Assembly (NCBI GenBank): GCA_022770365.1
Contig: JALEHU010000092.1
Coordinates: 44,861-108,860 of the forward strand
Reading direction: 5' to 3'
Source of the DNA: Blautia sp.
GTDB taxonomy: Bacteria > Bacillota > Clostridia > Lachnospirales > Lachnospiraceae
Length of the DNA stretch: 64,000 nt
Shown here: in pieces, positions 12,993-31,079 of the stretch
Layout of the letters: each line of letters begins with the position of its first letter
Numbering within the stretch: position 1 is the stretch's first letter
The notes under the pieces: model-generated
Told to the model about the DNA's origin: nothing
Databases searched by the model: none
Seen by the model: only the letters and a program-made list of their open reading frames with translations
Program-made: the position numbers and the translations under genes

Positions 12993-13223
12993 TTATTTAC
13001 AGTCTTTGCAGGTTTCCATACATGGTGCATCGAAGCTCGGGTTAAAAGCATAGAAGTTTTTGGAATCCAGCTGTTCCTGTATGCTTCGAAGAGCTTCACC
13101 GAAGCGCTGGAAGTGGACGACTTCCCGGGCCCGGAGGAACCTGATGGGGTCTGCGATTTCCGGAATATCGCGGACTACCCGGAGAATGTTGTCGTAAGTG
13201 GAACGTGCTTTCTGCTCTGGTGC
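12993..13223 (-). CDS. cotJC: Spore coat manganese catalase-like CotJC, 3' part of split gene
   Basis: This is the C-terminal third of CotJC: after the junction it reads APEQKARSTYDN, then DPIRFLRAREVVHFQRFGEA, then LDSKNFYAFNPSF and a Cys-rich tail (CMETCKDCK). It has no promoter or start of its own; the apparent ATG at 13301 lies in foreign sequence and gives 27 unrelated residues. It carries only the last two manganese ligands, equivalent to Glu140 and His174 of the rebuilt protein. The missing 138 residues are at 30667-31079 on the same strand. Joined at the GC of 13222-13223 the frame is intact (213 residues). It could be called a pseudogene if excision never happens. Confidence 0.9.
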   Translation of the reverse strand, partial: APEQKARSTYDNILRVVRDIPEIADPIRFLRAREVVHFQRFGEALRSIQEQLDSKNFYAFNPSFDAPCMETCKDCK

Positions 13224-13244
13224 GATAAGAAAAGAACAATAAAT
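13218..13244 (-). other. Recombination junction at the cotJC 3' part (att site)
   Basis: The crossover dinucleotide is GC at 13223-13222 (minus strand). On the cotJC side the sequence continues ACCA; on the element side it is preceded by TTATC. The inner arm 13224-13244 is an inverted partial repeat of 30646-30666, with 15 of 21 positions equal. The recombinase stop codon is 84 bp away. Confidence 0.8.
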
Positions 13245-13307
13245 GGAGTACATAGTTACATTTGCATAAGAAGTTTTGAATATTTCCTGTTTCGTTTGCA
13301 TATTCCA

Positions 13308-14897
13308 TCAGAAATTCCAGTGGATTTCGATCGGAACCTTATTTGTGCCGGGAAGCCTTTTTTCTATCCGGATATAGTCGATCATTGTTTCAACAGCTTC
13401 GCGATTCAGATGTTCCAGGTTTGTGTATTGCTCAGAAAGCTTTTCAGGATTATCCTTTGATTCCTTGCTCCTTTGTAACTCTGATAATGACCGTCTGCTG
13501 TCCGAAATCATACCCTCCAGGCGGTTTTCTTCTTCAGCAAAATTCTTTGAAAATGACAGGAATTCGCTTTCGGTAAGGATTCCTTTTGTTTTATCCAGGT
13601 AAAGATTCTGAAGTGCTTTCCGATATTCAGAGATTTTTTTTTCGTACAGAGCGATATGGTTTCTCAATTGTTCTTCCTGTTTTGCAAAAATGTCTTCAGA
13701 CAATCGCCTTATAATTTTCATCTGAGCTGCTATATTGTTTTTGTCAAGATATTGTGCGGATAATTGGTTCAATTCAGTGATAACTGCGTTTTCTAATGCA
13801 TTCAGTGAAATAAAAGCACCGGCACAGGCGTCTTTAGACACTTGGCGGTTGGGGCATTTCAGGTAATACCTGCCGTGACTCTGAGAAGAACGCATCACGT
13901 AACCGCACCCTGCACACCGGACTTTTCCTGCGAATATTCCGGTTTTTCCGCTGGAAAAGGGCCTGGTGCGCTGCTGGATGAGAGCCTGTACTCTGTCCCA
14001 GAGCGCGCGGTCTATGATCGGCTCATGAGTTCCTTCGACGCGGTACCATTCATTTTTGGGACGCGGTCGGTTCTGCTTTGTTTTGTAGGAGATGCTTCCG
14101 TATTTTCCCTGTACCATATTGCCGATATAGATTTCATTCTGAAGCATATGGGCAATGGCAGAGTATTTCCATAAGGTACTGTTTGGGGATTTTGGCTGCT
14201 GATAACGATAACCATGCAGACGTTTGTATTCTGTGGGATTTGGAATGCCGCGTTCATTCAGCATTCGTGCAATGGCTGTTTTTCCATATCCCTGTGAAAA
14301 CAGAGTAAACACCGCGCGGACGACAGCGGCAGCTTCTTCATCAATGATCAGATGCCCTTTCTGCCGGGGATCCTTTTGGTAGCCGTAAAGGGGAAAGGCA
14401 CCGATATGGAGCCCCTTTTTACGCTTGTCTGTGAGAACACTTCTGATGTTGTCCGACATGTCTTCCAGGTACCATTCATTGACCAGACCATTGATCTGCC
14501 GGGATTTTTTATTGCCCTTACTGGCGGTGTCGGCATTGTCCACGATACTGACAAAGCGGATTCCCCATAGTGGAAATAAGCCATGGATATACTTTTCCAC
14601 AAGCTCCAGTTCACGGGTGAATCGTGACTGCGTTTTGCAGAGTATCACATCGAATTTTCTTCTCTCAGCATCCTTAAGCAGACGGTTGAATTCCGGCCGC
14701 TTCCGGTCAGAACCGGTGTAATCATCATCACTGTAGATATCATAGACTTCCCATCCCTGTTCATGTGAATAATCCATCAGCATGGATTTCTGATTCCGGA
14801 TGCTTTCGCTGTCATCTGTTTCATGTTGTTTATTCCGGTCTTCTTCCGACAGGCGGCAGTAGATTGCAGCTTTCACAGTCATACAGAGATCACACAT
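13308..14897 (-). CDS. Large serine recombinase, likely excisionase/integrase of the cotJC element
   Basis: A 529-residue large serine recombinase. The resolvase catalytic domain carries Ser17 in AIYCRLSEED and arginines in SRFTREL (92, 95). The recombinase domain follows (GLHIGAFPLYGYQKDP, about 162-177). A zinc ribbon has Cys328, Cys331, Cys348 and Cys358, and a coiled-coil region lies at about 390-480. All parts of a functional SpoIVCA/TnpX-like enzyme are present and the frame is intact. ATG 14897 overlaps the stop of a small upstream frame (ATGTGTGA), suggesting an operon. Its position 84 bp from the att junction and its orientation parallel to cotJC make it the likely enzyme for excision. 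Confidence 0.92.
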   Translation of the reverse strand: MCDLCMTVKAAIYCRLSEEDRNKQHETDDSESIRNQKSMLMDYSHEQGWEVYDIYSDDDYTGSDRKRPEFNRLLKDAERRKFDVILCKTQSRFTRELELVEKYIHGLFPLWGIRFVSIVDNADTASKGNKKSRQINGLVNEWYLEDMSDNIRSVLTDKRKKGLHIGAFPLYGYQKDPRQKGHLIIDEEAAAVVRAVFTLFSQGYGKTAIARMLNERGIPNPTEYKRLHGYRYQQPKSPNSTLWKYSAIAHMLQNEIYIGNMVQGKYGSISYKTKQNRPRPKNEWYRVEGTHEPIIDRALWDRVQALIQQRTRPFSSGKTGIFAGKVRCAGCGYVMRSSQSHGRYYLKCPNRQVSKDACAGAFISLNALENAVITELNQLSAQYLDKNNIAAQMKIIRRLSEDIFAKQEEQLRNHIALYEKKISEYRKALQNLYLDKTKGILTESEFLSFSKNFAEEENRLEGMISDSRRSLSELQRSKESKDNPEKLSEQYTNLEHLNREAVETMIDYIRIEKRLPGTNKVPIEIHWNF

Positions 14898-15048
14898 CCT
14901 GTCCGGTTTTGCCGGTATGTTTTCTTTTATCTTCTTCCATTCGAATAATCATGTCAGTCCATTGCTTTGTAAACTGATCTTTGACAGGAGTATTTTTGCC
15001 GCCTTTAAAAACATTTTTACAGATAACCTGTGTCTGTTTCCGTCCCAA
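14890..15048 (-). CDS. Small basic protein upstream of the recombinase, possible accessory factor
   Basis: An open frame of 52 codons from TTG 15048, or up to 65 codons from CTG 15087, ends at TGA 14892-14890, overlapping the recombinase start. GGCGGTGG lies 4 bases before the TTG. The peptide is basic and hydrophilic, with KQTQVICKNVFKGG and KQWTDMIIRMEEDKRK. It could be a recombination directionality factor or the remnant of an upstream recombinase gene; I do not recognise the family. Its overlap with the recombinase favours a real, co-translated gene. Confidence 0.4.
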   Translation of the reverse strand: MGRKQTQVICKNVFKGGKNTPVKDQFTKQWTDMIIRMEEDKRKHTGKTGQDV

Positions 15049-15096
15049 CAGACCACCGCCTTTATTTTGTTGTGAAAACTTATGCAGCTATGCCTG

Positions 15097-15122
15097 TACC
15101 GTATGACAATTAGATGTGATGT
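15097..15122 (-). promoter_or_regulatory. Candidate mother-cell (sigma-K/E-like) promoter of the recombinase operon
   Basis: On the minus strand CATACGGTA (15105-15097) fits the sigma-K -10 consensus CATANNNTA. An AC (15122-15121) lies 15 bp upstream, close to the sigma-K -35. It is 49 bp before the TTG of the small gene. The cotJ operon has a similar CATAAAATA. The motif is short and could occur by chance. Confidence 0.3.
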
Positions 15123-15163
15123 TTTCCCTGTTGACGATGGAAGTTGGTTATTGTAATATTAAA

Positions 15164-15350
15164 GATGATGGGGTCAAAAGGTATTTTGACCCCTCTGATA
15201 CACGGATTTCTCCGCGCTTTGTGCTCCCGAAATCCTAAAAACATTCGAAATCCGCCTTATTCGGGCTACTTTCTCATGTTTTTGCGGGTCCCAAAGTCAT
15301 GTTTTTTCATGCAAGCATGAAACACATGACCTTTTGACCCTTGTATCATA
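15164..15350. repeat. Repeat family A, long form (copy A2)
   Basis: A 187-bp unit begins GATGATGGGGTCAAAAGGT and ends ACCTTTTGACCCTTGTATCAT, the same two ends seen head to head in the short copies. The interior contains small hairpins (for example CATGTTT near 15298 with AACACATG near 15321) but no gene. It forms the left end of a cassette carrying the DUF4160/DUF2442 pair. Confidence 0.7.
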
Positions 15351-15428
15351 TTAAAATAATAGCAAAAGAAATCTTTATAATACACGTAAGATAAAAACTT
15401 AAACTGGAATTAGAAAGGAGCAATATAG

Positions 15429-15680
15429 TTGCCAGAAATTAGCAGATTTTACGGTATTATAATTAAAATGTTTATTAAACCAAGAGAACATGAGCCAAGT
15501 CATTTACATGCATTATATGGAGAATATGTTGGTATTTTTGATCTTCAGACAATGAATATGACTGAGGGGGATTTACCGGGAAAAGCACAGGAGCTTGTTA
15601 AAGAATGGATGGAGAATAATCAAAGTGAATTGCTTGAAATGTGGGATAGCCAAAATTTCCATAAATTACCGCCATTGTAA
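15429..15680 (+). CDS. DUF4160 domain protein
   Basis: An 83-residue protein with the DUF4160 pattern: IIIKMFIKPREHEPSHLHALYGEY, then DLPGKAQELVKEWMENNQSELLEMWD. The start is TTG 15429 behind AAAGGAG. DUF4160 genes are usually paired with a DUF2442 gene, as here (26 bp downstream), and such pairs have been suspected to be toxin-antitoxin-like; this is not proven. The pair is more AT-rich than its neighbours and is enclosed by family A repeat ends, pointing to transfer as a unit. Confidence 0.75.
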   Translation: MPEISRFYGIIIKMFIKPREHEPSHLHALYGEYVGIFDLQTMNMTEGDLPGKAQELVKEWMENNQSELLEMWDSQNFHKLPPL

Positions 15681-15706
15681 TCTGACCAATAATGGAGGCG
15701 TGCTGA

Positions 15707-15955
15707 ATGATACCAAGAATTAAAAGCATAAAGCCATTGGAGAATTATATGCTATATGTGATGTTTGACGATAAAAAAGAAGTAATTTACGATGTGAAGA
15801 CAGATATTGAAAATATCAAAAGCTATGAAGCACTAAGAAAAGTTCAGGGATTGTTTGAATGCGTGAAGTTGGACCAAAGCAGAACAGTTGTTTTCTGGAA
15901 TGATGAAATTGATTTACCAAGTGATATTATCTATGAATATGGAACGGTTGTGTAA
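15707..15955 (+). CDS. DUF2442 domain protein
   Basis: An 82-residue protein starting MIPRIKSIKPLENYMLYVMF, with the DUF2442 features of a small beta-rich fold followed by VVFWNDEIDLPSDIIYEYG. ATG 15707 follows AATGGAGG. It is the partner of the DUF4160 gene just upstream and is probably co-transcribed with it. The function is unknown; DNA binding or antitoxin activity has been proposed for the family but nothing here proves it. Confidence 0.75.
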   Translation: MIPRIKSIKPLENYMLYVMFDDKKEVIYDVKTDIENIKSYEALRKVQGLFECVKLDQSRTVVFWNDEIDLPSDIIYEYGTVV

Positions 15956-15963
15956 GAGGAGAT

Positions 15964-15987
15964 AAAATACCTTTTGAGCCCATCATC
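15964..15987 (-). repeat. Repeat family A end, inverted (copy A3)
   Basis: This 24-bp sequence is the reverse complement of 15164-15187 with one mismatch (23 of 24). Together they bound an 824-bp cassette with the DUF4160/DUF2442 genes. Confidence 0.75.
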
Positions 15988-16058
15988 ATGTAATAAAATT
16001 TATTTCAAAATACGTCATAATTTCAGAAAATATGCTGGCTATCCTGGGAGTTTTCTGG

Positions 16059-16181
16059 TACAATCAATGAAAAGACAAACTTTATGAAATTCATATTTGA
16101 ATCGTTCTGAATGACAAGGGATTCCTCATCACAAAGCCGATTGCACGATTCAGGCAGCCGCCTGAGTTTTGTTTGCGTACG
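16059..16181 (+). promoter_or_regulatory. Putative promoter and structured leader (attenuator/riboswitch-like)
   Basis: An extended -10 (TGGTACAAT, -10 hexamer TACAAT at 16059-16064) would start a transcript near 16071. The leader has a long-range 7-bp helix, TGAATCG (16098-16104) with CGATTCA (16146-16152), then a small hairpin CAGGC/GCCTG (16151-16164), then a terminator ahead of the TM1266-type gene. A GGGATTCC segment (16118-16125) could pair with the AATCC of the terminator's 5' arm. I do not recognise a known riboswitch class. Confidence 0.4.
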
Positions 16182-16214
16182 AATCCTTCCGCATTTGGAG
16201 CGGGAGGATTTTTT
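16182..16214 (+). terminator. Terminator hairpin in the leader of the TM1266-type gene
   Basis: AATCCTTCCGC pairs with GCGGGAGGATT over 11 positions (one G-U), with a 7-base loop and then TTTT. It lies 62 bp before the next start codon, so it looks like an attenuator; it could instead end the DUF2442 transcript. Confidence 0.75.
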
Positions 16215-16275
16215 GTATCCGGGGAAGTACTGTGTTTTTCCTGCGATATAAAGAACTGTTATGGAGGAAAGAGGA

Positions 16276-16533
16276 ATGGAAACAAGAGTTGCAGTCATCG
16301 GGATCATTTTGGAAAAGCCGGATTCTGTGGAAAAAATGAATGCGGTGATCCACGAATATTCGGAATATATTGTAGGCCGTATGGGGATTCCCTACCGTCA
16401 GAAGGGAATTAATATTATCAGTATCGCAGTGGATGCTCCCCAGGATATTATCAGTGCATTTTCGGGAAAAATCGGCCGTATTGACGGTGTAACTGCCAGG
16501 GCAGCGTATTCGAATTATGTATTTAAAGAATGA
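16276..16533 (+). CDS. TM1266-family putative regulator of [FeFe]-hydrogenase genes
   Basis: An 85-residue protein with an ACT/NikR-like ferredoxin fold pattern: METRVAVIGIILEKPDSVEKMN, then YSEYIVGRMGIPY and NIISIAVDAPQDIISAFSGKIG. This is the family called iron-only hydrogenase system regulator. It has no DNA-binding domain in view, so regulation may be indirect. ATG 16276 follows AGAGGA. It lies upstream of a NitT/TauT-type importer, not hydrogenase genes; hydE is 9.5 kb away on the other strand. Confidence 0.75.
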   Translation: METRVAVIGIILEKPDSVEKMNAVIHEYSEYIVGRMGIPYRQKGINIISIAVDAPQDIISAFSGKIGRIDGVTARAAYSNYVFKE

Positions 16534-16535
16534 GA

Positions 16536-16585
16536 GTAACTGTTCAGAAGCCATTATCCTGTGAAGGTACTGAACAGATACGAAT
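16536..16585. repeat. Palindromic repeat, family B (copy B1)
   Basis: A 50-bp unit with ends GTAACTGTTCAG and CTGAACAGATAC, complementary at 11 of 12 positions. It matches copy B2 (24005-24054) at 47 of 50 positions. It sits two bases after a stop codon. Confidence 0.8.
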
Positions 16586-16662
16586 GAGATTCTGCAAGTA
16601 CATCTATTCTAAGGATATGCAATAGCAATACTCTGTCTCAGACAGAAATCGTGAGGTGTTTT

Positions 16663-17430
16663 GTGATAAAGAAAATCCATCAGTTCCTGAAGCCATGGTA
16701 TGTGATCATCCTTATTTTTATTTTATGGTGGGTGGTTTCCGTGTTGGAAATATGGAATACTTACCTGCTTCCTACACCGTGGAAGGTTGGAGCGACATTT
16801 GTGAAAATGCTCCAGAAGGGTGAAATTTTTGAGGCGATTCTGGTGAGCTTTAAGCGCGTGCTCATTGGCTTTTTTATATCGTTTGCTCTGGCTTTTGCTA
16901 TGGGAATGTTGTCTGCGTACCTGCCCGGACATGCGGCATATCTGAAGCATGTCAGCAATTTTCTGCGGAATGTTCCGCCGCTTTCCATGATCTCCCTGCT
17001 GATTTTATGGTTTGGCCTGGGGGAAACCTCCAAGCTGATCATCATTGTCCTTGCCTCCTTTTTTCCAATGACAATGAATATCAGCAAGGGATTTGTGGAA
17101 TGTGACAAAAGGCTGATAGAGGTAGGAAAATCCATGGGATTTTCCAGACTCAAGCTCTTTTTTCGTATCAGCCTGCCTTATGCCAGAGAGGATATTCTGG
17201 TAGGCATGCGTATCGGGCTGGGCTACAGCTGGCGTGCGCTGATTGGAGCAGAGATGTTTGCCGCGGCGTCGGGACTTGGTCATATGATCGTATTTGCACA
17301 GCAGATGTCGCGTTCGGATAAAGTCCTGATCGGTATTTTTCTTATTGGAATTATCGGCTGTATCTGCGATAAGCTTTTTTCAGTATTTATCCGTAAAGTA
17401 TGTGTAGGCGGTGAAAAAAATGGGTCATGA
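16663..17430 (+). CDS. ABC transporter permease, NitT/TauT type
   Basis: A 255-residue inner-membrane permease with about six hydrophobic segments. The cytoplasmic EAA-type loop is visible (SMGFSRLKLFFRISLPYAR followed by a GLGYSWRALIGAEM segment), typical of importers for nitrate, sulfonates or thiamine precursors. GTG 16663 follows GAGGTG. Its end overlaps the ATPase gene by 11 bp. The substrate cannot be read from the permease. Confidence 0.85.
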   Translation: MIKKIHQFLKPWYVIILIFILWWVVSVLEIWNTYLLPTPWKVGATFVKMLQKGEIFEAILVSFKRVLIGFFISFALAFAMGMLSAYLPGHAAYLKHVSNFLRNVPPLSMISLLILWFGLGETSKLIIIVLASFFPMTMNISKGFVECDKRLIEVGKSMGFSRLKLFFRISLPYAREDILVGMRIGLGYSWRALIGAEMFAAASGLGHMIVFAQQMSRSDKVLIGIFLIGIIGCICDKLFSVFIRKVCVGGEKNGS

Positions 17431-18133
17431 TATTCAGCTTAAAAATATAGAAAAATCATTTCTGGTTGAAGGACAGCCTCTGGAAGTGCTGAAGGAATTT
17501 GACCTTACAGTTCCTCACCATGCTATTACTGTAATTCTTGGAAAAAGCGGATGCGGAAAGACGACACTTCTTCGGATTATAGGCGGTCTGGATAAAGATT
17601 TTCAGGGTACAGTTATTTATCCGGAGAAGTCGAAAACAGCCATTGTCTTTCAGGAACCGCGTCTGATGCCGTGGCTTACTGTGTGGAAAAATATCGTTTT
17701 CGGATTGAAAAAAAAGGAAATCAGAGAAGAAAAAATCAGGGAGCTGATTGCACTGACGGGACTTTCCGGGTTTGAAAATGCACTTCCCTGCCAGCTTTCC
17801 GGCGGTATGGGACAGCGCACTGCGATTGCACGGGCACTGGCTGTTTCACCGGAATTTCTTCTGATGGATGAACCGTTTGCAGCTCTTGATTATTTTACCA
17901 GAAGCAGTATGCAGCAGGCTCTTCTGGAGATACATGAAAAAAATGACTGCGGTGTACTTTTTATTACCCACAGTATTGAGGAAGCACTGACGATCGGTGA
18001 CCATATTGTGATCATTGATCAGAAAAAAGTGAAGAAGGTTTATCATCTGAAAGAAAAGCCGGCAAAGAGAAATCTTTTATCAAAAGAAATGGCTGATCTC
18101 AAAGAGGATATTCTTCAAAATATTAATTCATAA
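17420..18133 (+). CDS. ABC transporter ATP-binding protein, NitT/TauT type
   Basis: A 237-residue ATPase with Walker A GKSGCGKTT, signature LSGGMGQRTAIARAL, Walker B LLMDEPFAALD and the switch histidine in LFITHSIEEAL. ATG 17420 is preferred over GTG 17411 because GGCGGTG is at proper distance. It energises the permease encoded just before it and is followed by the binding protein gene after 17 bp, giving a three-gene importer operon. Confidence 0.9.
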   Translation: MGHDIQLKNIEKSFLVEGQPLEVLKEFDLTVPHHAITVILGKSGCGKTTLLRIIGGLDKDFQGTVIYPEKSKTAIVFQEPRLMPWLTVWKNIVFGLKKKEIREEKIRELIALTGLSGFENALPCQLSGGMGQRTAIARALAVSPEFLLMDEPFAALDYFTRSSMQQALLEIHEKNDCGVLFITHSIEEALTIGDHIVIIDQKKVKKVYHLKEKPAKRNLLSKEMADLKEDILQNINS

Positions 18134-18150
18134 AAAAGGAGATATGCAAA

Positions 18151-19110
18151 ATGAAAGTGAAAAAAACAATGTCACTCTTACTTACGGCAGCAATTACACT
18201 GTCTTCCCTGACAATGAGCTCTCCGGTATCGGTTATGGCAGAAGATCTGGATTCTGTAGCGGTAACCTATGTTACTGCACCGCTGAATGTCCCGTCTATT
18301 GTGGAGAAAAACCACAGTATTTTTGCGGAAAATATGAAGGATCTGGGCATTGAATTTGTGGAATATTCGGATCTTACGTCCGGTGCTGATCAGACGCAGG
18401 CGCTGGCATCCGGGGATATCCAGTTCCTGTATGCGGTTGGTGCAACTTCCGTAATCTTATCTGCAGCAAACGGGGCGGATATTAAGATCATTTCTATGTA
18501 CAGCCGGTCCCCAAAAGCATTCTGCCTGTTTTCAAATGATGAGAGTATTACATCACCGGCAGACCTGAAAGGAAAAACAATTGCAGGTCCTCAGGGCACC
18601 ATTCTCCATGAACTTCTTGTGGCGTATCTTGCATCCGGGGATATGACGATCGATGATGTTAATTTTGTAAATACGAGCATACCGGACGCTATGGCTGCTC
18701 TTAGCGGCGGAAGTGCCGACTGTGCACTTCTGGCAGGTGCTGCAGCCTATAATACTTCTTCCGGCGGCGCGCATCTTGTAACAAATGGAGAAGGATTTGT
18801 AGAAGCAACGATCGCATGTGCGACGACCAATAAGTTTTATACAGAGCATCAGGATGTAGTGGACAAATTCCTGGAAGCACAGAAAGAAGTGCTGGATTAT
18901 ATGGATGAAAATCCGGATGAAGCAATGGAAGAGACAGCAGAATTTCTTGATCTTGACGTAAATGCGGTCAAAGAAATGTACGAATACTATGATTTTGACA
19001 TGACGATTAAAGATTCTGATATTGATGCTATGAAATCCACAATGGAATTTATGCTGGATACAGAAATGATCGAAGAAGAAGTGGATATTGAGGAACTGGT
19101 AATCCGCTGA
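18151..19110 (+). CDS. ABC transporter substrate-binding protein (NMT1/THI5-like)
   Basis: A 319-residue exported protein. The signal peptide is residues 1-30, ending in SVMA before EDLDSV; no lipobox cysteine is seen. The mature part has the periplasmic-binding fold of nitrate/sulfonate/pyrimidine binders (SGDIQFLYAVGATSVILSAA; DLKGKTIAGPQGT). It carries an acidic C-terminal tail. The ligand is unknown. Unlike the second importer in the element (27.8-30.6 kb), no TPP riboswitch precedes it, so thiamine precursors are not indicated. Confidence 0.85.
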   Translation: MKVKKTMSLLLTAAITLSSLTMSSPVSVMAEDLDSVAVTYVTAPLNVPSIVEKNHSIFAENMKDLGIEFVEYSDLTSGADQTQALASGDIQFLYAVGATSVILSAANGADIKIISMYSRSPKAFCLFSNDESITSPADLKGKTIAGPQGTILHELLVAYLASGDMTIDDVNFVNTSIPDAMAALSGGSADCALLAGAAAYNTSSGGAHLVTNGEGFVEATIACATTNKFYTEHQDVVDKFLEAQKEVLDYMDENPDEAMEETAEFLDLDVNAVKEMYEYYDFDMTIKDSDIDAMKSTMEFMLDTEMIEEEVDIEELVIR

Positions 19111-19163
19111 TTTAATGATGGCTGGTCTGATATTATTAAAGATAAAATGATGTTTTGCAGTAC

Positions 19164-19213
19164 AGAAAGATGCAGAAAGACTTCGCGAAGATGTTTTTCG
19201 GCATCTTTCTTTC
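19164..19213 (+). terminator. Terminator after the NitT/TauT-type operon
   Basis: AGAAAGATGC and GCATCTTTCT pair, with an inner hairpin CTTCGCGAAG, followed by TTCT. It is about 50 bp past the binding-protein stop. Confidence 0.65.
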
Positions 19214-19372
19214 TATAAACCGGAAAAAGATTCCGGACAACAGTCAGGCAGACAGTTTGTAAAGACAATACCTGCCTTCAAAGTTAAAAAGGTTTTATTG
19301 ACGATTCAAAATGAAATGTGTATGATAATAACAGTTCAGATTACCTGAACTGTATGTACAAGAGGTGTGAAA

Positions 19373-20344
19373 ATGATTTTTCTATATGAAAATACAAAGT
19401 ATGGATACAGGATCACCCGTGTTTTCGGACGGAGTGAAATTGTGGAAATACCGGAATACATTGGCGAAATACCGGTGACGGAGCTGGGAGATTATGCATT
19501 TTCGGACAGAATGGACCGGGAAGATTTTGAAGAATTAATGTCCAGTGGGAAGCTGTGCAATGAGGATGGAACAGAGGCTTTTTCGCTGGAAAACCAGCCG
19601 GAGATAGCGGGAAACGCGCTTCGGGAACTGCAGCTTTCTTCCAGGATTGCGAAAATCGGAAGATATGTTTTTTATAACTGCGGTAATCTGCGCAGAATTA
19701 GTTTCAGCGGTAAACTGACAGATATCGGAGCAGGTGCGTTGACCGGATGCCATAAAATTAATAAGCTTGAGGTGGAAACCGGGGAAGGCGGCAGCTCTTC
19801 ATTACGTGAGATTCTGACAGAACTGCCGGAGGAACTGTGTGTGGATATCATGAAAAACGGAGAAAAAGGAAGATTCTGGTTTCCGGAGTTTTTTGAGGAA
19901 GGTGTGGAAAATACGCCCGCCAGAATACTTGAAAATCATGTACACGGAAGCGGAATCCGTTACCGCAATTGTTTTATCCATAAGAGCCTGAACGTACGGG
20001 AGTACGATCGTCTTTTTGAATATGCAAAGGCCTGGGAGAATGAAAAACTGGTTATTTCCCTTGCTCTGGACAGAGTCAGATATCCGGTGGAATTGTGTGA
20101 AGAAGCCGCAGGCCGCTATCTGGATTATCTGAAAGAAAAGGTTCGGCCGGCGATATGGCTGCTCTCTGCGAAAAAAGAATATGGCTTTATTGGGGAAATT
20201 TTGAAAGAAATTGCTCCATCCAGAGAAACCGCAGAGGAGCTTCTTGTGAGAGCCGGACAGAAAGGAGATACAGAGCTGGTAAGTATCCTTATGGACTATC
20301 TTCATCGTCATACGAAGAAGCAGAGGAAGGTATTTGAACTGTGA
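19373..20344 (+). CDS. Leucine-rich-repeat (BspA-type) protein
   Basis: A 323-residue protein whose first half has LRR_5/BspA-like repeats: EYIGEIPVTELGDYAF, then ALRELQLSSRIAKIGRYVFYNC and NLRRISFSGKLTDIGAGAL. The second half is alpha-helical and resembles repeat-type helical domains. There is no signal peptide, so it is probably cytoplasmic. ATG 19373 follows AGAGGTG. Its stop overlaps the next start (GTGA), and with the next two genes it forms a tight operon, which suggests it is a binding or scaffold partner of the ATPase system. Confidence 0.75.
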   Translation: MIFLYENTKYGYRITRVFGRSEIVEIPEYIGEIPVTELGDYAFSDRMDREDFEELMSSGKLCNEDGTEAFSLENQPEIAGNALRELQLSSRIAKIGRYVFYNCGNLRRISFSGKLTDIGAGALTGCHKINKLEVETGEGGSSSLREILTELPEELCVDIMKNGEKGRFWFPEFFEEGVENTPARILENHVHGSGIRYRNCFIHKSLNVREYDRLFEYAKAWENEKLVISLALDRVRYPVELCEEAAGRYLDYLKEKVRPAIWLLSAKKEYGFIGEILKEIAPSRETAEELLVRAGQKGDTELVSILMDYLHRHTKKQRKVFEL

Positions 20345-23188: not shown

Positions 23189-23210
23189 GAAACAGGAGGG
23201 TGAGAGAATA

Positions 23211-23993: not shown

Positions 23994-24004
23994 TGAAAAT
24001 CTGT

Positions 24005-24054
24005 GTAACTGTTCAGAAGTCACTTTCCTGTGAAGGTACTGAACAGATACGAAT
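24005..24054. repeat. Palindromic repeat, family B (copy B2)
   Basis: A 50-bp copy of the unit at 16536-16585 with three mismatches, in the same orientation and again just after a gene. Ends GTAACTGTTCAG/CTGAACAGATAC can form a hairpin. Confidence 0.8.
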
Positions 24055-24131
24055 CTGTTTATAAGTGAGAGACTGCAGAGGTGATGCGGGCTTGCCCGCT
24101 TTGTATTTTGAGTGAGAGGAATAACGGAGAC

Positions 24132-24563
24132 ATGAAAGAAATAAAATCATATGAGCACAAAGTACAGTATTATGAGACTGATCAGATGGGGATCGTGCAT
24201 CACTCCAATTATATCCGGTGGTTTGAGGAAGCACGTACATACGTGCTGGAGGAAATTGGTTTCGGTTATAAAAAGATGGAAGAATGCGGAGTTATGAGTC
24301 CGGTACTGGCAGTAAACGCGGAGTATAAGTCGATGACACATTATTCAGATATCGTTTGTATTGATACAAAGCTTGCTTCCTATAACGGAATCAAGCTTCA
24401 GCTTGATTATGTGATACGTGATAAAGCAACAGGGGAAGTGCGCTGCAGCGGATATACGAGGCACTGTTTCCTGACACCGGAAGGCAGACCGGTTTCCCTG
24501 AAACGTTCTTATCCGGAGATTCACAGGATCTTTGAAGAATTGATGGAAATATCCGGATCGTGA
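24132..24563 (+). CDS. Acyl-CoA thioesterase, YbgC/4HBT family
   Basis: A 143-residue hotdog-fold thioesterase. The family motif YYETDQMGIVHHSNYIRWFEEAR holds the catalytic Asp and the following helix. ATG 24132 follows ACGGAG; longer frames upstream lack support. It would hydrolyse acyl-CoA thioesters; chain length is not readable. It is transcribed alone and ends before a clear terminator. Confidence 0.88.
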   Translation: MKEIKSYEHKVQYYETDQMGIVHHSNYIRWFEEARTYVLEEIGFGYKKMEECGVMSPVLAVNAEYKSMTHYSDIVCIDTKLASYNGIKLQLDYVIRDKATGEVRCSGYTRHCFLTPEGRPVSLKRSYPEIHRIFEELMEISGS

Positions 24564-24644
24564 AAATGACGGAAACAGAGATTCTGGATATAAATGCGAA
24601 AAAATAGATGCTGAAATATAGAATAGATTTGTAAACAAACAGAG

Positions 24645-24691
24645 ACAGAGGTAGAAGCGGATGCAGTCCGTTTTCATACCTCTGTTTTTTT
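24645..24691 (+). terminator. Terminator after the thioesterase gene
   Basis: ACAGAGGTA and TACCTCTGT pair, followed by seven T. The loop is about 29 bases and holds a small GCGGA..TCCG-type stem. Confidence 0.85.
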
Positions 24692-24722
24692 CGGCAAAAG
24701 AGAATGTATGCGAAAAAAAGTG

Positions 24723-24772
24723 TTGACATATAACTATGTTGGTGATATGGTTAATTACACAAGTAATGAACC
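24723..24772 (+). promoter_or_regulatory. Promoter and operator of the YtrA-type ABC operon
   Basis: TTGACA (24723-24728) and a -10-like TATGGT (24746-24751) are 17 bp apart. An inverted repeat, GGTTAATTAC (24749-24758) and GTAATGAACC (24763-24772), overlaps the -10, a position expected for repression by the regulator encoded downstream. Confidence 0.55.
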
Positions 24773-24868
24773 AAATAAGTGACTGAACAGGAAACAGCGG
24801 AGTTTCTTGGGAAATCAGAGAAACATAACGTACAACGGTGAACATTTACAGGAAGGAAGTGAGACAGA

Positions 24869-25252
24869 GTGAATGAAATCCTGACACAGGAAAAGTCTAT
24901 TTATATTCAGATTAAAGAAATGATCGAGAAGGATATTCTGAGAGATATTCTTCTGGAGGAAGAGCGTGTTCCAAGCACGAATGAACTGGCGAAGCTGTAT
25001 GCCATTAATCCGGCTACAGCAGCCAAAGGAGTCAATCTTCTGGTTGATGAAGGAATTTTATATAAAAAACGCGGAATTGGCATGTTTGTAGCAGCGGGAG
25101 CGAAGAAAAGAATTATGGAAAAGAGAAAAAAGCATTTTTATGATGATTATGTAAAAAGTCTTCTTGCAGAGGCAGTCAGCCTCGGGATATCAAAGAAAGA
25201 GCTGATTGAGATGATTGAAGAGTCAAAAGAAGGAGGAAAAGAAAATGAGTAA
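24869..25252 (+). CDS. GntR-family regulator, YtrA subfamily
   Basis: A 127-residue repressor with an N-terminal winged helix (YIQIKEMIEKDIL, RVPSTNELAKLYAINPATAAKGVNLLVDEGILYKKRGIGMFV) and only a short helical tail, which defines the YtrA subgroup. GTG 24869 follows GGAAGTGAG. It overlaps the ABC ATPase gene by 8 bp. It probably represses its own operon through the palindrome at 24749-24772; in related systems induction follows cell-wall stress or antimicrobial peptides. Confidence 0.88.
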   Translation: MNEILTQEKSIYIQIKEMIEKDILRDILLEEERVPSTNELAKLYAINPATAAKGVNLLVDEGILYKKRGIGMFVAAGAKKRIMEKRKKHFYDDYVKSLLAEAVSLGISKKELIEMIEESKEGGKENE

Positions 25253-26117
25253 ACTGACAGCAAAAGGAATTGTTAAGACGTATAGCGGAAACGATGTTCT
25301 GCACAATATAGATCTGGAACTTGAGCAGGGCAGAATCTACGGACTGATCGGGAGAAACGGAGCCGGAAAGACTACATTGCTTTCGATCCTTACCGCACAG
25401 AATCCGGTATCATCCGGCAGCGTCACCTTTGATGGAGAACCTGTGTGGGAAAATCCGGAAGTATTGAAACATCTGTGTTTCTCCAGAGAACTGAGTCAGA
25501 GCGGAAGCAACAATCCCAGTTCTCTGAAGGTGAAAGAGTATCTGAAAATTGCAGCGGCTTTTCTTCCGAACTGGGATCAGAATATGGCAGACCGGCTGAT
25601 AAAAGAATTTCATATTGATCTGAAAAAGCGCATCAGCAAGTTGTCAAAAGGAATGATTTCCATGGTGACAATCATTGTAGCCATGGCAAGCAAAGCGGAA
25701 TTCACGTTTCTGGATGAACCTGTATCAGGGCTGGATGTGGTAGCAAGAGAGCGATTTTACCAGCTTCTTCTGGAAGAATATACAGAAACGGGCAGAACCT
25801 TTGTGATATCAACACATATTATTGAAGAAGCTGCAGATGTTTTTGAAGAAGTGATCATTGTGGATAAAGGAAAAATCCTGCTGAAGGAAAACACGCAGGA
25901 GCTTCTGGAGAGGAGCTTTCACATCAGCGGGCATGCAGATGAGGTGGAGAAGGCAACAGAATCTCTGGAAAAGTATCATGAGGAACATCTGGGACGCAGC
26001 AGAGGCGTGACAGTGCTTTTGCAGCCGGGGCAGTCCATACCGGATGGATATGATATCAGTGTTCAGCCATTAAGCCTTCAGAAGGTATTTGTAGCTTTGT
26101 GCGGAGAGGAGTCCTGA
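25245..26117 (+). CDS. ABC transporter ATP-binding protein (YtrB-like)
   Basis: A 290-residue ATPase with Walker A GRNGAGKTTLL, a modified signature LSKGMISMVTIIVAM, Walker B FLDEPVSGLD and switch STHIIEEAADV. The C-terminal 80 residues are an accessory domain. ATG 25245 follows AGGAGG and overlaps the regulator gene. It forms a YtrA-type operon with the two membrane genes that follow. Confidence 0.9.
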   Translation: MSKLTAKGIVKTYSGNDVLHNIDLELEQGRIYGLIGRNGAGKTTLLSILTAQNPVSSGSVTFDGEPVWENPEVLKHLCFSRELSQSGSNNPSSLKVKEYLKIAAAFLPNWDQNMADRLIKEFHIDLKKRISKLSKGMISMVTIIVAMASKAEFTFLDEPVSGLDVVARERFYQLLLEEYTETGRTFVISTHIIEEAADVFEEVIIVDKGKILLKENTQELLERSFHISGHADEVEKATESLEKYHEEHLGRSRGVTVLLQPGQSIPDGYDISVQPLSLQKVFVALCGEES

Positions 26118-26118
26118 T

Positions 26119-26805
26119 ATGAGTACAGATCTGAAAATGCGACGTCTGAAATTCTGGTTCAAAAACAGTCTGGAGATCTTTGGTATCTCCGTCGGAATGG
26201 CTGTTTTCTGGATGCTGTTCATGGCAGCCGGTAATCGGGAATTTACCGGAAGTATTGTTTCCATGGGGTGGCAGTTATTTCCTTTGTTCCCGTATTATCT
26301 GATGCTGGCGGGATTTTTTATGACAGCGATAACGGGAGTTTCCTATTTTCAGGCTGTTTTTTCAGTCCTGATATCAATGGGAGCGACAAGAAAACAGAGC
26401 ATCTGCGGGATTTATTTCAGTACAGGCGGAGCAATTCTTGGAATTCTTGCTGCAGCCGGTCTGATATGGAAACTGATACCGGGAGATATCTCTGTTTCCG
26501 GATGGCAGCTTATGCCTGCTTTTACAGGAGTACTTTTTTCGGCAGCAGCTTTATTTCTGATCATCGGCGCAGTTCTGGCACGCTGGGGCAAAATCGGACT
26601 CATTCTGCTAGGAGTTGTATACCTGATCGTGGGTGGTTTTGCAGGAGCCACATTTGTTCTTTCCAACGGCTCTGCGGTTATGAAAATATTGAGTGTTCAT
26701 CTGGATAAAAGTATCATAATTGCAGCTTTTGTCGGAATTGTTCTGTATCTGGCAACAGGAATTTTCATTTTGAGAGTAACACGTAAACTGGAAGTTCATA
26801 CATAG
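26119..26805 (+). CDS. ABC-type membrane protein of YtrA operon (first)
   Basis: A 228-residue protein with about six hydrophobic segments and no binding motifs. It starts one base after the ATPase stop and is followed by a second membrane gene 11 bp later. I infer that it is the permease of the YtrA-controlled exporter; no family name is certain from sequence alone. Confidence 0.7.
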   Translation: MSTDLKMRRLKFWFKNSLEIFGISVGMAVFWMLFMAAGNREFTGSIVSMGWQLFPLFPYYLMLAGFFMTAITGVSYFQAVFSVLISMGATRKQSICGIYFSTGGAILGILAAAGLIWKLIPGDISVSGWQLMPAFTGVLFSAAALFLIIGAVLARWGKIGLILLGVVYLIVGGFAGATFVLSNGSAVMKILSVHLDKSIIIAAFVGIVLYLATGIFILRVTRKLEVHT

Positions 26806-26816
26806 GAGGAATCAGG

Positions 26817-27536
26817 ATGTTTGGTACAATCAGGAAACAGTTTCTGATACAATGGAGGGGCTGGTTATGGACGCTTTTGATTATTTTTGGAGGAGCTCTG
26901 TCAGGAATCGCTCTGCATTATTTTATTATTCTCACCGATCATGAAACAGTGAGCTATATCGCTCTGGGAACGGTTATGGCATGTATTGTGGCGGTATTTC
27001 TGGGCGGTGCCATGATCGTCAGTCAGTTTATTATCTATTTTGATGCGGAAGTCTCCATGGGATGCACAAGAAGCCGTTTTATGGTATCTGTCTGTGCGGT
27101 TGATTTTCTGTTTATGATCCTGTATGCGGCAGCAGCTGCGCTTATCAATTTCACAGAAAATGCACTGGACAGGATTTTGTATCCGGGAATGTCATGCGAA
27201 ATAAATTTACTTCCCTATCTTCTGAAATGGGGAATTCCTGCAGCAGCTTTCCTCTGTATCCTCTGTATTTTTATGGGGGTTTTGATACTCCGTTATGGAA
27301 AAAAAGCATTTTGGGTGCTGTGGATACTCTGGATGCTGGGATGTGTCGGAATTCCCCAGATAATGGAAGCGGCTGGAGAAGCACCGAATTCTCTGTTTGG
27401 CCGGATTGGCAGAGCCTGTGCAGGTATTATGAACAACACTTCGATTCATACGATGATTATTCTGGGTGTGCTGGTATGTGCACTGAGCCTGGGAATTACA
27501 TGGAAACTGATCCGAAAACAGCAGGTAACGATGTAA
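26817..27536 (+). CDS. ABC-type membrane protein of YtrA operon (second)
   Basis: A 239-residue protein with about six hydrophobic segments. ATG 26817 follows TAGGAGG. Its order after the ATPase and the first membrane gene suggests a heterodimeric permease. The region GCTRSRFMVSVCAVDFLFM resembles the gating loop motif ATRK of the first protein (MGATRKQSICGIYF), supporting a common origin. Confidence 0.7.
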   Translation: MFGTIRKQFLIQWRGWLWTLLIIFGGALSGIALHYFIILTDHETVSYIALGTVMACIVAVFLGGAMIVSQFIIYFDAEVSMGCTRSRFMVSVCAVDFLFMILYAAAAALINFTENALDRILYPGMSCEINLLPYLLKWGIPAAAFLCILCIFMGVLILRYGKKAFWVLWILWMLGCVGIPQIMEAAGEAPNSLFGRIGRACAGIMNNTSIHTMIILGVLVCALSLGITWKLIRKQQVTM

Positions 27537-27544
27537 AACAGTGC

Positions 27545-27572
27545 TTGACTTTTCTGGTATTCGTGATACACT
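27545..27572 (+). promoter_or_regulatory. Putative promoter of the thiamine-precursor operon
   Basis: TTGACT (27545-27550) and an extended -10 TGATACACT (hexamer 27567-27572) are 16 bp apart, about 35 bp before the TPP riboswitch. Confidence 0.55.
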
Positions 27573-27607
27573 TTTGATTGAAAAAATATTTAACAAAATA
27601 TTGTTTA

Positions 27608-27695
27608 CAGGGGTGCTGGTGAAGTCCGGCTGAGATGGATACCGTATTCGTATCGGACCCTATAACCTGATCTGGGTAATGCCAGCGGAGGGATG
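27608..27695 (+). promoter_or_regulatory. TPP (THI-box) riboswitch
   Basis: The conserved aptamer parts are all present: GGGGTGC at the start, GGCTGAGAT (27629-27637), ACCCTATAACCTGATCTGGG and TAATGCCAGCGGAGGGA at the end. It is followed by a terminator, so thiamine pyrophosphate should switch transcription off for the downstream importer genes. Confidence 0.97.
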
Positions 27696-27724
27696 AGCGC
27701 TTTTTGCTCTGTAATGTGTGAATC

Positions 27725-27758
27725 AGCTCCTGCAGGTATCATTCTGCGGGAGCTTTTT
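27725..27758 (+). terminator. Riboswitch-controlled terminator
   Basis: AGCTCCTGCAG pairs with CTGCGGGAGCT (one G-U), followed by TTTT. It lies between the TPP aptamer and the first gene, as expected for transcriptional control. Confidence 0.85.
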
Positions 27759-27815
27759 ATGATACCTTCTAAGGTTGCTCTGCCCGGTTTCAGGAAAAGA
27801 AAAGGAGGATAAAAC

Positions 27816-28118
27816 ATGAACGCAAGTGTAGCAATTCAGGTACTTCCTGAAGCAAAAGATGATGATGAACTGATCCGTGTGGTAGATGAGGTCATTGCCT
27901 ATATCAAAAGTACGGGGCTGAACTGTTATGTGGGACCTTTTGAGACAGCAATTGAAGGTGACTATGATGAACTGATGGACATTGTAAAGGAATGTCAGCA
28001 CATTGCAGTTAAAGCGGGAGCACCTTCTGTAGCTGCGTATATCAAAGTCACCTATCGTCCGGAAGGAGAGGTGCTCACCATTGAAAAAAAAGTTACGAAA
28101 CATCACCTCGAAGATTAA
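27816..28118 (+). CDS. Thiamine-binding protein, MTH1187/YkoF family
   Basis: A 100-residue protein of the thiamine-binding MTH1187 (DUF77) family: NASVAIQVLPEA, then EVIAYIKSTGLNCYVGPFETAIEGDYDELM and a helix with VKECQHIAVKAGAPSV. Members bind thiamine or its pyrimidine part, matching the TPP riboswitch just upstream. ATG 27816 follows AAAGGAGG. Its 3' end overlaps the permease start by 38 bp. Confidence 0.85.
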   Translation: MNASVAIQVLPEAKDDDELIRVVDEVIAYIKSTGLNCYVGPFETAIEGDYDELMDIVKECQHIAVKAGAPSVAAYIKVTYRPEGEVLTIEKKVTKHHLED

Positions 28119-28852
28119 TACGATAGCTGCAATTCTGGTAATTCTGGTTGTATGGCAGATGGTGTCATCTCTTGGGATCGTACCGGGATATATGCTTCCA
28201 TCGCCGGTACAGGTTGTAAAAGCGTTTGTTCAGGAGTTTCCGCTTCTGATGGAAAACGCCAGAGTGACACTTCAGGAAGCGTTCATCGGACTTGCCTGCG
28301 GTGTGGCTTTCGGCTTTATTATGGCGGTTCTGATGGACCGGTTTGAGGTGCTTTATAAGGCATTCTATCCGCTTGTCGTGCTGACTCAGACGATTCCTAC
28401 CGTAGCTGTGGCACCCCTCCTTGTATTATGGTTCGGGTATGAGATGCTGCCGAAGATCATTCTGATCGTGATCGCTACTTTTTTTCCGGTGACTGTGGGA
28501 GTTTTGGACGGATTTCGCAGCGCAGACAAGGATACGATGAATCTTCTTCGGTCAATGGGCGCTTCGGATTTTCAGATTTTCCGTTATGTGAAACTGCCGG
28601 GAGCTATGGGGCAGTTTTTTTGCAAGTCTTCGGATCTCTGCTGCATATTCGGTGGTAGGTGCGGTGATTTCTGAGTGGCTGGGAGGATTTTCCGGGCTCG
28701 GTGTTTATATGACCAGAGTGAAAAAAGCATTTTCTTTTGATAAAATGTTTGCAGTGATATTTTTGATTTCCCTGATTAGCCTGATTCTTATGAAACTGGT
28801 GGATCTTTTACAGAAAAAATGTATGCCATGGGAGGATACCGAAAATGAATAA
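28081..28852 (+). pseudogene. Thiamine-precursor ABC permease, frameshifted in a T7 run
   Basis: A NitT/TauT-type permease of about 256 codons read in two frames. Frame one starts TTG 28081 behind GAGGTG and is good to PGAMGQFF. At a run of seven T (28615-28621) the frame is lost. Deleting one T restores FFASLRISAAYS and then VVGAVISEWLGGFSGLGVYM to the stop at 28852. The rest is a normal permease. This may be an assembly or sequencing error in a homopolymer, a slippage-controlled gene or a true mutation. Binding protein and ATPase genes downstream are intact. Confidence 0.85.
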
Positions 28853-29843
28853 AAAGAAATTAATAGCAGCAGGACTGGCTGCCGCAATGACTGTAGCAAT
28901 GACAGGAGCAGTTCCGGCTTACGAGGGAGAAGCAGAGACAGAAAAAATCACATTTGTTCTGGACTGGACTCCAAATACCAACCATACCGGACTTTATGTG
29001 GCTCAGAGCCAGGGCTTTTTTGAAGAACAGGGTCTGGAAGTAGAGATTGTCCAGCCGCCGGAAGATGGTGCCGATGCACTGGTGGCTTCCGGAAAAGCGC
29101 AGTTTGGCGTTTCCTTTCAGGATACCATGGCGCCGGGTGTGGCAGGTGAAAATGCCCTTCCGACGACAGCGGTAGCAGCGCTGATCCAGCATAATACCTC
29201 CGGAATCGTATCCCGCAAAGGTGAGGGAATGGATACTCCAAAAGGAATGGAAGGCAAAAAATATGCGACATGGGATAGCCCTGTGGAAAAAGCCATGATC
29301 CAGAATGTGGTAGAAGAGGACGGCGGTGACTACGGCAAAGTAGAAATGATTCCAAGCACAGTTACTGATGAAGTTTCCGCACTTCAGTCCAATTCTGTGG
29401 ATGCCATCTGGATCTTCTACGGATGGGCAGGTGTCAAGATGGAACTGGAAGGTCTGGAAACAGATTACTTTGCTTTTAAAGATATTAATCCGGTATTTGA
29501 CTACTATACACCGGTTGTGATCGCGAATAATGATTTTCTTGCAAATGAGCCGGAAACAGCGAAAAAATTCCTTACAGCACTGAAAGACGGATATGAATAT
29601 GCCATCGAAAATCCGGAAGATGCTGCGCAGATCCTCTGTGAAGCTGCACCTGAGCTGGATAAAGAGCTTGCTGTGGCAAGTCAGAAATATCTTTCCGAGC
29701 AGTATAAAGCTGAGGTGGAACAGTGGGGCTATATGGATCCTGCAAGATGGAACAGTTTTTATCAGTGGCTGAATGATAATGGTCTGGTAGAAAATGAAAT
29801 CCCGGAAAATGCCGGATTTTCCAATGACTATCTTCCGGAATGA
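28845..29843 (+). CDS. thiY: Thiamine-pyrimidine-precursor binding protein (ThiY-like)
   Basis: A 332-residue exported NMT1/THI5-like protein. The signal peptide is about residues 1-25 with no clear lipobox. The mature start ITFVLDWTPNTNHTGLYVAQ is the ThiY/HMP-binding signature, followed by FEEQGLEVEIVQPPEDGA. It would deliver formylaminopyrimidine or hydroxymethylpyrimidine to the permease. ATG 28845 overlaps the permease stop. The TPP riboswitch at the operon head supports the substrate class. Confidence 0.9.
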   Translation: MNKKKLIAAGLAAAMTVAMTGAVPAYEGEAETEKITFVLDWTPNTNHTGLYVAQSQGFFEEQGLEVEIVQPPEDGADALVASGKAQFGVSFQDTMAPGVAGENALPTTAVAALIQHNTSGIVSRKGEGMDTPKGMEGKKYATWDSPVEKAMIQNVVEEDGGDYGKVEMIPSTVTDEVSALQSNSVDAIWIFYGWAGVKMELEGLETDYFAFKDINPVFDYYTPVVIANNDFLANEPETAKKFLTALKDGYEYAIENPEDAAQILCEAAPELDKELAVASQKYLSEQYKAEVEQWGYMDPARWNSFYQWLNDNGLVENEIPENAGFSNDYLPE

Positions 29844-29868
29844 TCCCGGATCAGGAAGGTTTTGAGAG

Positions 29869-30609
29869 ATGTCAGAACTAATCGTAAAAAATGTCAGTAA
29901 GTCCTTTGACGGCAGAACCATCATACGGAATATTAATGTGACACTTCATGAAGGAGAACTTGTCTGTCTTCTGGGGGTAAGCGGCGGCGGAAAAACAACA
30001 TTATTTAATGTTATTTCAGGTCTTACGCTGCCCGATGAAGGGCAGGTATTTCTTGACGGGGAAGAAATCACAGGAAAACCCGGGAAAATCAGTTATATGC
30101 TCCAGAAGGATCTGCTGCTTCCTTATCGAACGATCGAGGATAATGTGGCACTTCCTCTGATCATCAAAGGAATGAGCAAAAAGGAGGCAAGAAAGCAGGC
30201 GGCGCCTTATTTTGAAGAGTTTGGCCTGGAAGGTACAGAGAAAAAGTATCCCCGTCAGCTTTCCGGCGGTATGCGTCAGAGGGCTGCTCTGATGCGTACT
30301 TATATGTTTTCCCGGAATGTTGCTCTCCTAGATGAGCCTTTTTCCGCTCTGGATACGATAACGAAGGGAAATATGCATACCTGGTACCTGAATATCATGG
30401 AGCAGATTCATTTATCCACGCTGTTTATTACCCATGATATTGACGAGGCAATCCTTCTGTCGGACCGGATCTATCTGCTTACAGGCAAACCGGGAGAAAT
30501 CACACAGGAAATTGTGATCAGAGAGCCAAAACCCCGTAGAGCGGATTTTAACCTGACGGAAGAGTTTCTGCAGTATAAAAGACGAATACTGGAAAAAATC
30601 GGAGAATGA
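29869..30609 (+). CDS. thiZ: ABC transporter ATP-binding protein for thiamine precursor (ThiZ-like)
   Basis: A 246-residue ATPase with Walker A GVSGGGKTT, signature LSGGMRQRAALMR, Walker B ALLDEPFSALD and switch LFITHDIDEAIL. It is the last gene of the TPP-controlled operon and completes a ThiXYZ-type importer with the frameshifted permease and ThiY. It is also the last gene inside the cotJC element; its terminator touches the att arm. Confidence 0.9.
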   Translation: MSELIVKNVSKSFDGRTIIRNINVTLHEGELVCLLGVSGGGKTTLFNVISGLTLPDEGQVFLDGEEITGKPGKISYMLQKDLLLPYRTIEDNVALPLIIKGMSKKEARKQAAPYFEEFGLEGTEKKYPRQLSGGMRQRAALMRTYMFSRNVALLDEPFSALDTITKGNMHTWYLNIMEQIHLSTLFITHDIDEAILLSDRIYLLTGKPGEITQEIVIREPKPRRADFNLTEEFLQYKRRILEKIGE

Positions 30610-30610
30610 T

Positions 30611-30657
30611 ATCCTGACCGGAGAGAAAATTTCTTTCCGGCCAGGATTTTTTGTTTT
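30611..30657 (+). terminator. Terminator of the thiamine importer operon
   Basis: ATCCTGACCGGA and TCCGGCCAGGAT pair (one bulge), with an inner AGAAA/TTTCT stem, then TTTTTGTTTTT. The T tract overlaps the outer part of the att arm at 30646-30666. Confidence 0.85.
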
Positions 30658-30675
30658 TGAATGATCGCACCATCT
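30646..30675 (-). other. Recombination junction at the cotJC 5' part (att site)
   Basis: On the minus strand the gene reads GCAGATGGT then GC (30668-30667) then the foreign GATCATTC. The arm 30646-30666 is the partner inverted repeat of 13224-13244 (15 of 21 equal). The inner GATC and TTGTT blocks are the best conserved parts. Confidence 0.8.
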
Positions 30676-31079
30676 GCTGCAAGATTTTCAAACAAATCGG
30701 TAATGGGGTCTCCTTTGCTCTGGAATTCACAGGCGTTAAAAGGAACTCCTCCCGCTGCCTGGGGCCAGATACCAACAGTATGATCGATATAATACGGACC
30801 AAAACCGGATTTTTCAATTTCTTCCATAGAAAGATCCTTTGTGAGCTGGTGAACGATGGTAGAGACCATTTCGAGATGTGCCAGTTCTTCAGTACCTACA
30901 TCGTTGAGAACTGCGGCTGCCATGCGATTAGGCATAGTGAACCGCTGGGAAAGATATCTCATGGAGGCACCGATTTCACCATCCGGCCCACCATACTGAC
31001 TCATGATAAACTGGGCCAGTTTTGCATTAGGCGTTTTGATATTGATCGGATACTGCAGTCTTTTTTCATAATTCCACAT
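30667..31079 (-). CDS. cotJC: Spore coat manganese catalase-like CotJC, 5' part of split gene
   Basis: This is the N-terminal 138 codons of CotJC, beginning MWNYEKRLQYPINIKTPN. It carries the first three manganese ligands, Glu35 (PDGEIG), Glu65 and His68 (TEELAH), then GIWPQAAGGVPFNA and SKGDPITDLFENLAADGA, where the family continues with EQKAR. Instead the frame runs into foreign sequence and would add about 64 unrelated residues to a stop at 30471. The missing 75 residues are at 12993-13221. ATG 31079 directly follows the cotJB stop, with AGGAGG upstream. Neither part alone can hold the two-manganese site. Confidence 0.92.

Follow-up and report, generated by a model that had tools for sequence, protein, structure and literature searches.

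The spore coat gene cotJC of a Blautia sp. genome (G000; assembly GCA_022770365.1) is divided into two parts by an interval of 17,457 bp. Comparison with related genomes suggests, with a probability of about 0.8, that this interval acts as a sporulation switch of the skin type, directed at a new target gene and carrying host DNA as cargo. It lies in a stretch of 64,000 nucleotides (contig JALEHU010000092.1, positions 44,861 to 108,860; hereafter the window), whose own coordinates are used below. A large serine recombinase encoded inside the interval likely cuts it out and rejoins cotJC during spore formation. The features on which this reading depends are as follows.

31361..31744, minus strand: cotJA, intact (PF11007)
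31080..31400, minus strand: cotJB, intact (PF12652)
30673..31079, minus strand: cotJC 5′ part, codons 1-135 plus bases 1 and 2 of codon 136, open frame
30651..30683, minus strand: attL; gene arm CTTGCAGCA, central GA 30674-30673, element arm TGGTGCGATCATTCAAAAACAA; compared with genomes G009, G055 and G036 and with family loci
13308..14897, minus strand: large serine recombinase of the site-3 clade (PF00239, PF07508, PF13408); its start may be the ATG at 14882
13207..13239, minus strand: attR; element arm TTGTTCTTTTCTTATCGCACCA, central GA 13217-13216, gene arm GCAGAAAGC; compared with Blautia and family loci
12993..13217, minus strand: cotJC 3′ part, codon 136 to the stop codon (12995-12993), open frame

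The original prediction had placed the two halves on one strand, in order and in frame, downstream of intact cotJA and cotJB, and all of this has been confirmed. It had also joined 30667 to 13221, giving 213 residues with the sequence AADGAPEQKAR. That join has been rejected because it inserts four residues, DGAP, missing from the intact relatives compared; the corrected joint lies 12 bp away. Both halves have the core CAGA in common (30676-30673 and 13219-13216), and crossover at its GA, with which the Glu136 codon begins, gives an in-register join of 209 codons that reads LAAEQKAR, as in intact relatives. The 5′ part is 95% identical to an intact relative over codons 1-136 (tblastn), and the window genome (130 contigs, 85% complete) gave a single cotJC match; a second copy may lie in its missing part. 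The rejoined product fits the CotJC/manganese catalase family: its matches carry PF05067, manganese catalase chains such as 1jku are among them, and the motifs around the proposed ligand residues align with solved manganese catalases. Glu136 and His170 (Glu140 and His174 in the earlier numbering) are presumably metal ligands. The two element arms together form a palindromic attP in which the 9-bp arms flanking GA are perfect inverted repeats; such a layout is expected of the attP of a serine recombinase. A free attP was also sought in IMG/VR with the pattern CGCACCAGATGGYGCG; 98 stretches matched and were taken as chance, since none of the 80 that were fetched has a relative of the recombinase.

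The serine recombinase had been predicted just inside one junction and does lie there, about 90 bp from attR, with Resolvase, Recombinase and Zn-ribbon domains and an additional match to the integrase family phrog_95. Its clade was found in 4 of 64 Blautia genomes searched (100, 73, 71 and 69% identity), and all four (G000, G009, G036 and G055) have cotJC broken at codon 136, designated site 3. The site-3 interval is about 4.1 kb long in G009 and about 29 kb in G036, and in G055 the halves are on two contigs; the joints of G055 and G036 were compared by eye only. A search of 397 Lachnospiraceae genomes (E ≤ 1e-130) gave 21 matches, comprising G000, 19 relatives at 63-72% identity and one at 48%. 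A cotJC half broken at codon 136 is carried within the fetched flank by 17 of the 19, which belong to 16 other genera; none was found within that flank at L199, L200 or the 48% match. Relatives on IMG/VR viral contigs adjoin the same break in six of nine cases (exceptions, L167-L169). The break in the window is more than chance, because the same break occurs with a recombinase of 69-73% identity in three other Blautia genomes and in the 17 genomes of other genera. These findings also make it very improbable that two contigs were misjoined during assembly. The genome is indeed a draft of limited completeness, but both breaks have these neighbours in G055 as well, where they lie on separate contigs, and the break recurs with the same type of recombinase in the three other Blautia genomes.

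Further breaks in cotJC were located near codons 30-31 (site 1), 62 (site 2), 65 (site 2b) and 174-177 (site 4), and the recombinases form one clade per site (10 sequences for site 1, 5 for site 2, 2 for site 2b and 4 for site 3), with support of 100/99 to 100/100. Three rows of the tree bore no site label. That of G004 falls in the site-1 clade and was later located at site 1, and the middle recombinase of G036 falls in the site-2 clade. The third, from G056 (41-42% identity), groups beside the site-3 clade, its contig ends 104 bp beyond it, and it may be a candidate site-3 or site-4 enzyme. Among 60 Blautia genomes tallied for cotJC the gene is present in 42: intact in 18, split in 23 and cut by a contig end in one (G056). 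Only one half was found in three of the split cases (G008, G010 and G019), and three genes are in three pieces (G055, sites 1 and 3; G036, sites 2 and 3; G033, sites 1 and 2b). A script that searched only in-register joins with a shared dinucleotide found such joins in 20/20 same-genome pairs, the best matching 16 to 23 of 24 residues of the local reference. The joined frames of G055, G014, G033 (site 1) and G036 (site 2) stop early, owing to a second break or a contig end. Both halves of a gene broken at site 4 were observed in Blautia sp. XA-2221 (L098, 10001-19238 on), and the 5′ half only in L103/G019. Beyond the Blautia sample, double breaks were seen in two IMG/VR stretches (L161, 11635-11856; L165, 11637-11858), which are cotJC middle pieces from codon 63 with a serine recombinase on each side.

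The halves could in principle be made as separate chains that assemble without rejoining of the DNA, and each does sit in an open reading frame (ORF) with a start codon (202 and 102 amino acids). The 5′ ORF, however, carries 64-66 additional, unrelated residues, the 5′ piece at site 1 has only about 33 codons, and the three-piece genes would require three chains, which leaves this explanation with next to no likelihood.

Purifying selection on the split genes is the same as on intact ones. None of the 19 split genes compared (19/19) has a stop codon in codons 140-198, and over these codons their median ratio of nonsynonymous to synonymous differences (pN/pS) against 17 intact genes is 0.074-0.135. 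Pairs of intact genes gave 0.103 (n=136), and pairs broken at the same site gave 0.105 (site 1, 28 pairs), 0.119 (site 2, 10) and 0.054 (site 3, 6). G000 and G055 have the break and most of the interval in common, and between them pN is 0.014 and pS 0.45 over codons 138-198, and 0.021 and 0.54 over codons 33-136, a pattern not expected of a gene that had stayed broken since the two diverged. This bears on the possibility that a mobile element inactivated a dispensable cotJC and that the halves are remnants. In C. difficile, strains with insertions in related catalase genes are described as showing no significant coat defect (excerpted text of PMC11222575), and a cotJC-like paralogue of 62-65% identity is present in 8 of the 60 genomes (G008, G013, G025, G042, G043, G050, G052 and G059), with no match in G000. 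Such inactivation is nevertheless unlikely in view of the stop-free frames and intact-like pN/pS of all 19 split genes, the local restoration of the family sequence in all 20 pairs under the limits of the join script, and the fact that genomes without cotJC are mostly without sigK too. A sigK-type match of 1e-80 or better was found in 38 of the 42 cotJC carriers, and in the other four (G029, G034, G056 and G059) sigK itself is in two parts. The 18 genomes without cotJC comprise three with a strong match (G007, G020 and G021), one with an intermediate match (G024, 5e-63) and 14 with none better than 1e-37. Skin-like splits of sigK thus coexist with cotJC splits in the genus; the sigK of the window genome is whole (C119, 13417-14022).

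Three features lie on the upstream side of the recombinase gene, the first two of which may be relevant to its control.

14890..15048, minus strand: ORF of 52 codons that begins with TTG and overlaps the start of the recombinase gene; putative recombination directionality factor (RDF)
15077..15104, minus strand: sigma-E-type box ATA-N17-CATAAGTT, upstream of the small ORF
15196..15348, minus strand: Clostridiales-1 RNA (RF01699, 129 bits), located shortly before the small ORF and the recombinase gene

Relatives of the small ORF, of about 50 amino acids, precede the recombinase in 28 of 34 site-3-type loci (E ≤ 1e-4), and the ORF gave no Pfam match above the cut-off and no PHROG match; it is a conserved ORF and a candidate for the RDF. 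With a box pattern chosen post hoc, after the sequences had been seen, and among loci that are related, ATA-N14-18-CATA was found upstream in 25 of 27 loci (L200 left out); 500 rounds of Markov resampling of the sequence gave 2.2 on average and never more than 7. Within 320 bp before the recombinase, ATA-N17-CATA occurs in 25 of 33 site-3-type loci and in one of 27 controls, which are other serine recombinases of Blautia (27 of the 29 control loci, from 61 matches in 8 genomes). A first sigma-E scoring with spacers of 13-16 had shown no excess over shuffles; the spacing of 17 was noticed later and then tested. The cotJA gene is preceded by a box, CACAC-N16-CATAAAATA, that recurs in many Blautia loci and that we take to be of the sigma-K type. 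The known families and this box together point to expression of the cotJ genes in the mother cell. In C. difficile a mapped sigma-E promoter has the form ATA-N16-CATATATA, and CotCB and CotD, the CotJC-type catalases of that species (naming as in the excerpted text of PMC11222575), are listed as sigma-K targets (PMC3789822, in part), with which the box before cotJA is consistent.

The remainder of the interval holds the following.

15707..19110, plus strand: genes next to the recombinase, namely DUF2442, an ABC permease, an ATPase and an NMT1-type binding protein, the latter three also in G055
19367..30609, plus strand: block of 12 genes interpreted as native chromosome: LRR protein, VWA, MoxR-type ATPase, ZIP transporter, thioesterase, GntR, ABC transporter, two ORFs, and an importer (permease, NMT1 binding protein, ATPase) with a thiamine pyrophosphate (TPP) riboswitch
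27598..27710, plus strand: TPP riboswitch (RF00059), before the importer genes

The interval thus has two NMT1-type importers, one of them behind the riboswitch. The cotJC of G027 is unbroken at site 3, and just past its 3′ end, on one contig, stand 10 of the 12 block genes (all except ZIP and the thioesterase) with unchanged order and orientation. On this synteny 19367-30609, about 11 kb, is read as native chromosome that a rearrangement would have enclosed. Similarly, G056 has two genes of the left flank of the window, LRR-VWA-MoxR and the importer in line, and the importer adjoins cotJC in G042. Parts of the interval are matched in 47 of the 64 Blautia genomes (E ≤ 1e-100), with the genes often located elsewhere. 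The prediction that cotJC is split by an intervening element and can be rejoined in frame stands as to the split and the frame; wholly foreign content is ruled out for 19367-30609 by the G027 synteny and the genus-wide matches. G055 has the window arrangement at both breaks and no match for about 24.6-27.6 kb. The enclosure would either predate the parting of G000 and G055 or have come by transfer between them, perhaps through tandem duplication followed by deletions. The L-serine dehydratase genes sdaAA/sdaAB, upstream of cotJA in the window (32730-34370), are enclosed at site 1 in G055 and at site 2 in G042 and G023 (L032, 10246-11808; L036, 8668-10224; L037, 5725 on), so that host genes are cargo there too.

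The Pfam scan of 17 ORFs of the interval revealed no phage structural genes, as would be expected of a prophage, and no conjugation genes, as would be expected of an integrative and conjugative element (ICE). ICE-type excision would be occasional, occur in any cell without developmental control and restore cotJC in a minority only. The L165 recombinase relative does adjoin conjugative-transposon genes (TcpC, AAA_10 and NlpC/P60), but the gene content of the window interval and the sigma-E-type box upstream argue against it, and we regard it as rather improbable, slightly more so than inactivation.

The reading of the interval as an excisable element is upheld by comparison: the att anatomy, the restored family sequence, the purifying selection, the site-specific clade and the promoter box all favour it. 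The only other genome found with the window arrangement, G055, carries the recombinase, and no relative with that arrangement and without the enzyme was seen. In the switch proposed, the sigma-E-type box would drive the small ORF and the recombinase, the enzyme would excise the interval and rejoin cotJC, and the sigma-K-type box would later drive the rejoined cotJABC. Excision would be restricted to the mother cell, with the forespore chromosome retaining the interval; its loss would be harmless in the mother cell because that cell lyses. Several points weigh against this reading. The case for excision is built on sequence. No uninterrupted cotJC of the same species is present among the best 120 of 7,745 matches listed, the best being 92% identical at 99% coverage. 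Five of the eight genomes with a paralogue have a split cotJC, which may be replaceable there. No cotJC half adjoins the recombinase relatives of L199, L200, L217 and L167-L169 or the 41-42% relative in G056. As for the promoter, besides the post hoc choice of its pattern, two of the 25 N17 matches (L167 and L216) stand outside the shared context, no such box precedes the recombinases of sites 1 and 2b, and the site-2 matches, in L036, L037, L038 and L039, likewise lack that context.

The wider proposal, which we hold with less assurance than the switch itself but still consider probable, is that cotJC is a hub of programmed gene assembly in gut Lachnospiraceae, with five sites, at least four of them with their own recombinase clade, and that the gene is left in two or three parts in over half of the cotJC-bearing Blautia species sampled. 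In the window lineage the mother cell would moreover discard about 11 kb of native DNA, including the TPP-riboswitched importer, the MoxR/VWA pair and the ZIP transporter. Split sporulation genes have so far been scattered single cases; cotJC is split in 23 of 42 Blautia carriers at five sites, and breaks at site 3 extend to 16 further genera of the family sample. This set is material for studying the origin of such switches, their selective upkeep and the tying of a recombinase to development, and the switch can be tested directly by way of its exact att sites, small ORF and sigma-E-type box. The native DNA in the interval suggests a route from a chromosome segment to one eliminated in a somatic cell. 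Where annotation calls such genes truncated or missing, the sporulation of gut commensals will be misjudged.

No description of a split cotJC was found in the literature searched, in which the known split genes are sigK, spsM, spoVFB, spoVR, gerE and yabG. The skin elements of B. subtilis and C. difficile likewise split a mother-cell gene, sigK, in frame and carry a large serine recombinase inside by the junction; in C. difficile a directionality factor of 72 amino acids is under sigma-E and SpoIIID (PMC5025042, in part). In contrast to skin, the target here is a coat catalase gene, the scanned ORFs include no phage genes, much of the interval is native chromosome, and excision is predicted. 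The gin element in gerE of B. cereus ATCC10987 resembles the present interval in its non-phage content and its serine recombinase; according to the excerpted text of PMC5595907 it has an RDF, for which there is here a candidate only, and differs in its three recombinases, foreign-looking genes and target gene. In C. difficile R20291 the mobile element phi027 also adjoins a CotJC-like catalase gene, but the excerpted text of PMC11222575 describes that homologue as adjacent and mentions neither splitting nor rejoining. Tn916-like conjugative elements have serine integrases, and such genes lie beside the site-3 recombinase relative of L165, unlike in the window interval, whose scanned ORFs include no conjugation genes. 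Finally, SPbeta in spsM, vfbin in spoVFB, vrin in spoVR and yin in yabG are, as far as the excerpted sources describe them, recombinase-bearing elements that split sporulation genes as the present interval does; they are prophages or phage-like and use one site per gene, whereas cotJC is broken at five.

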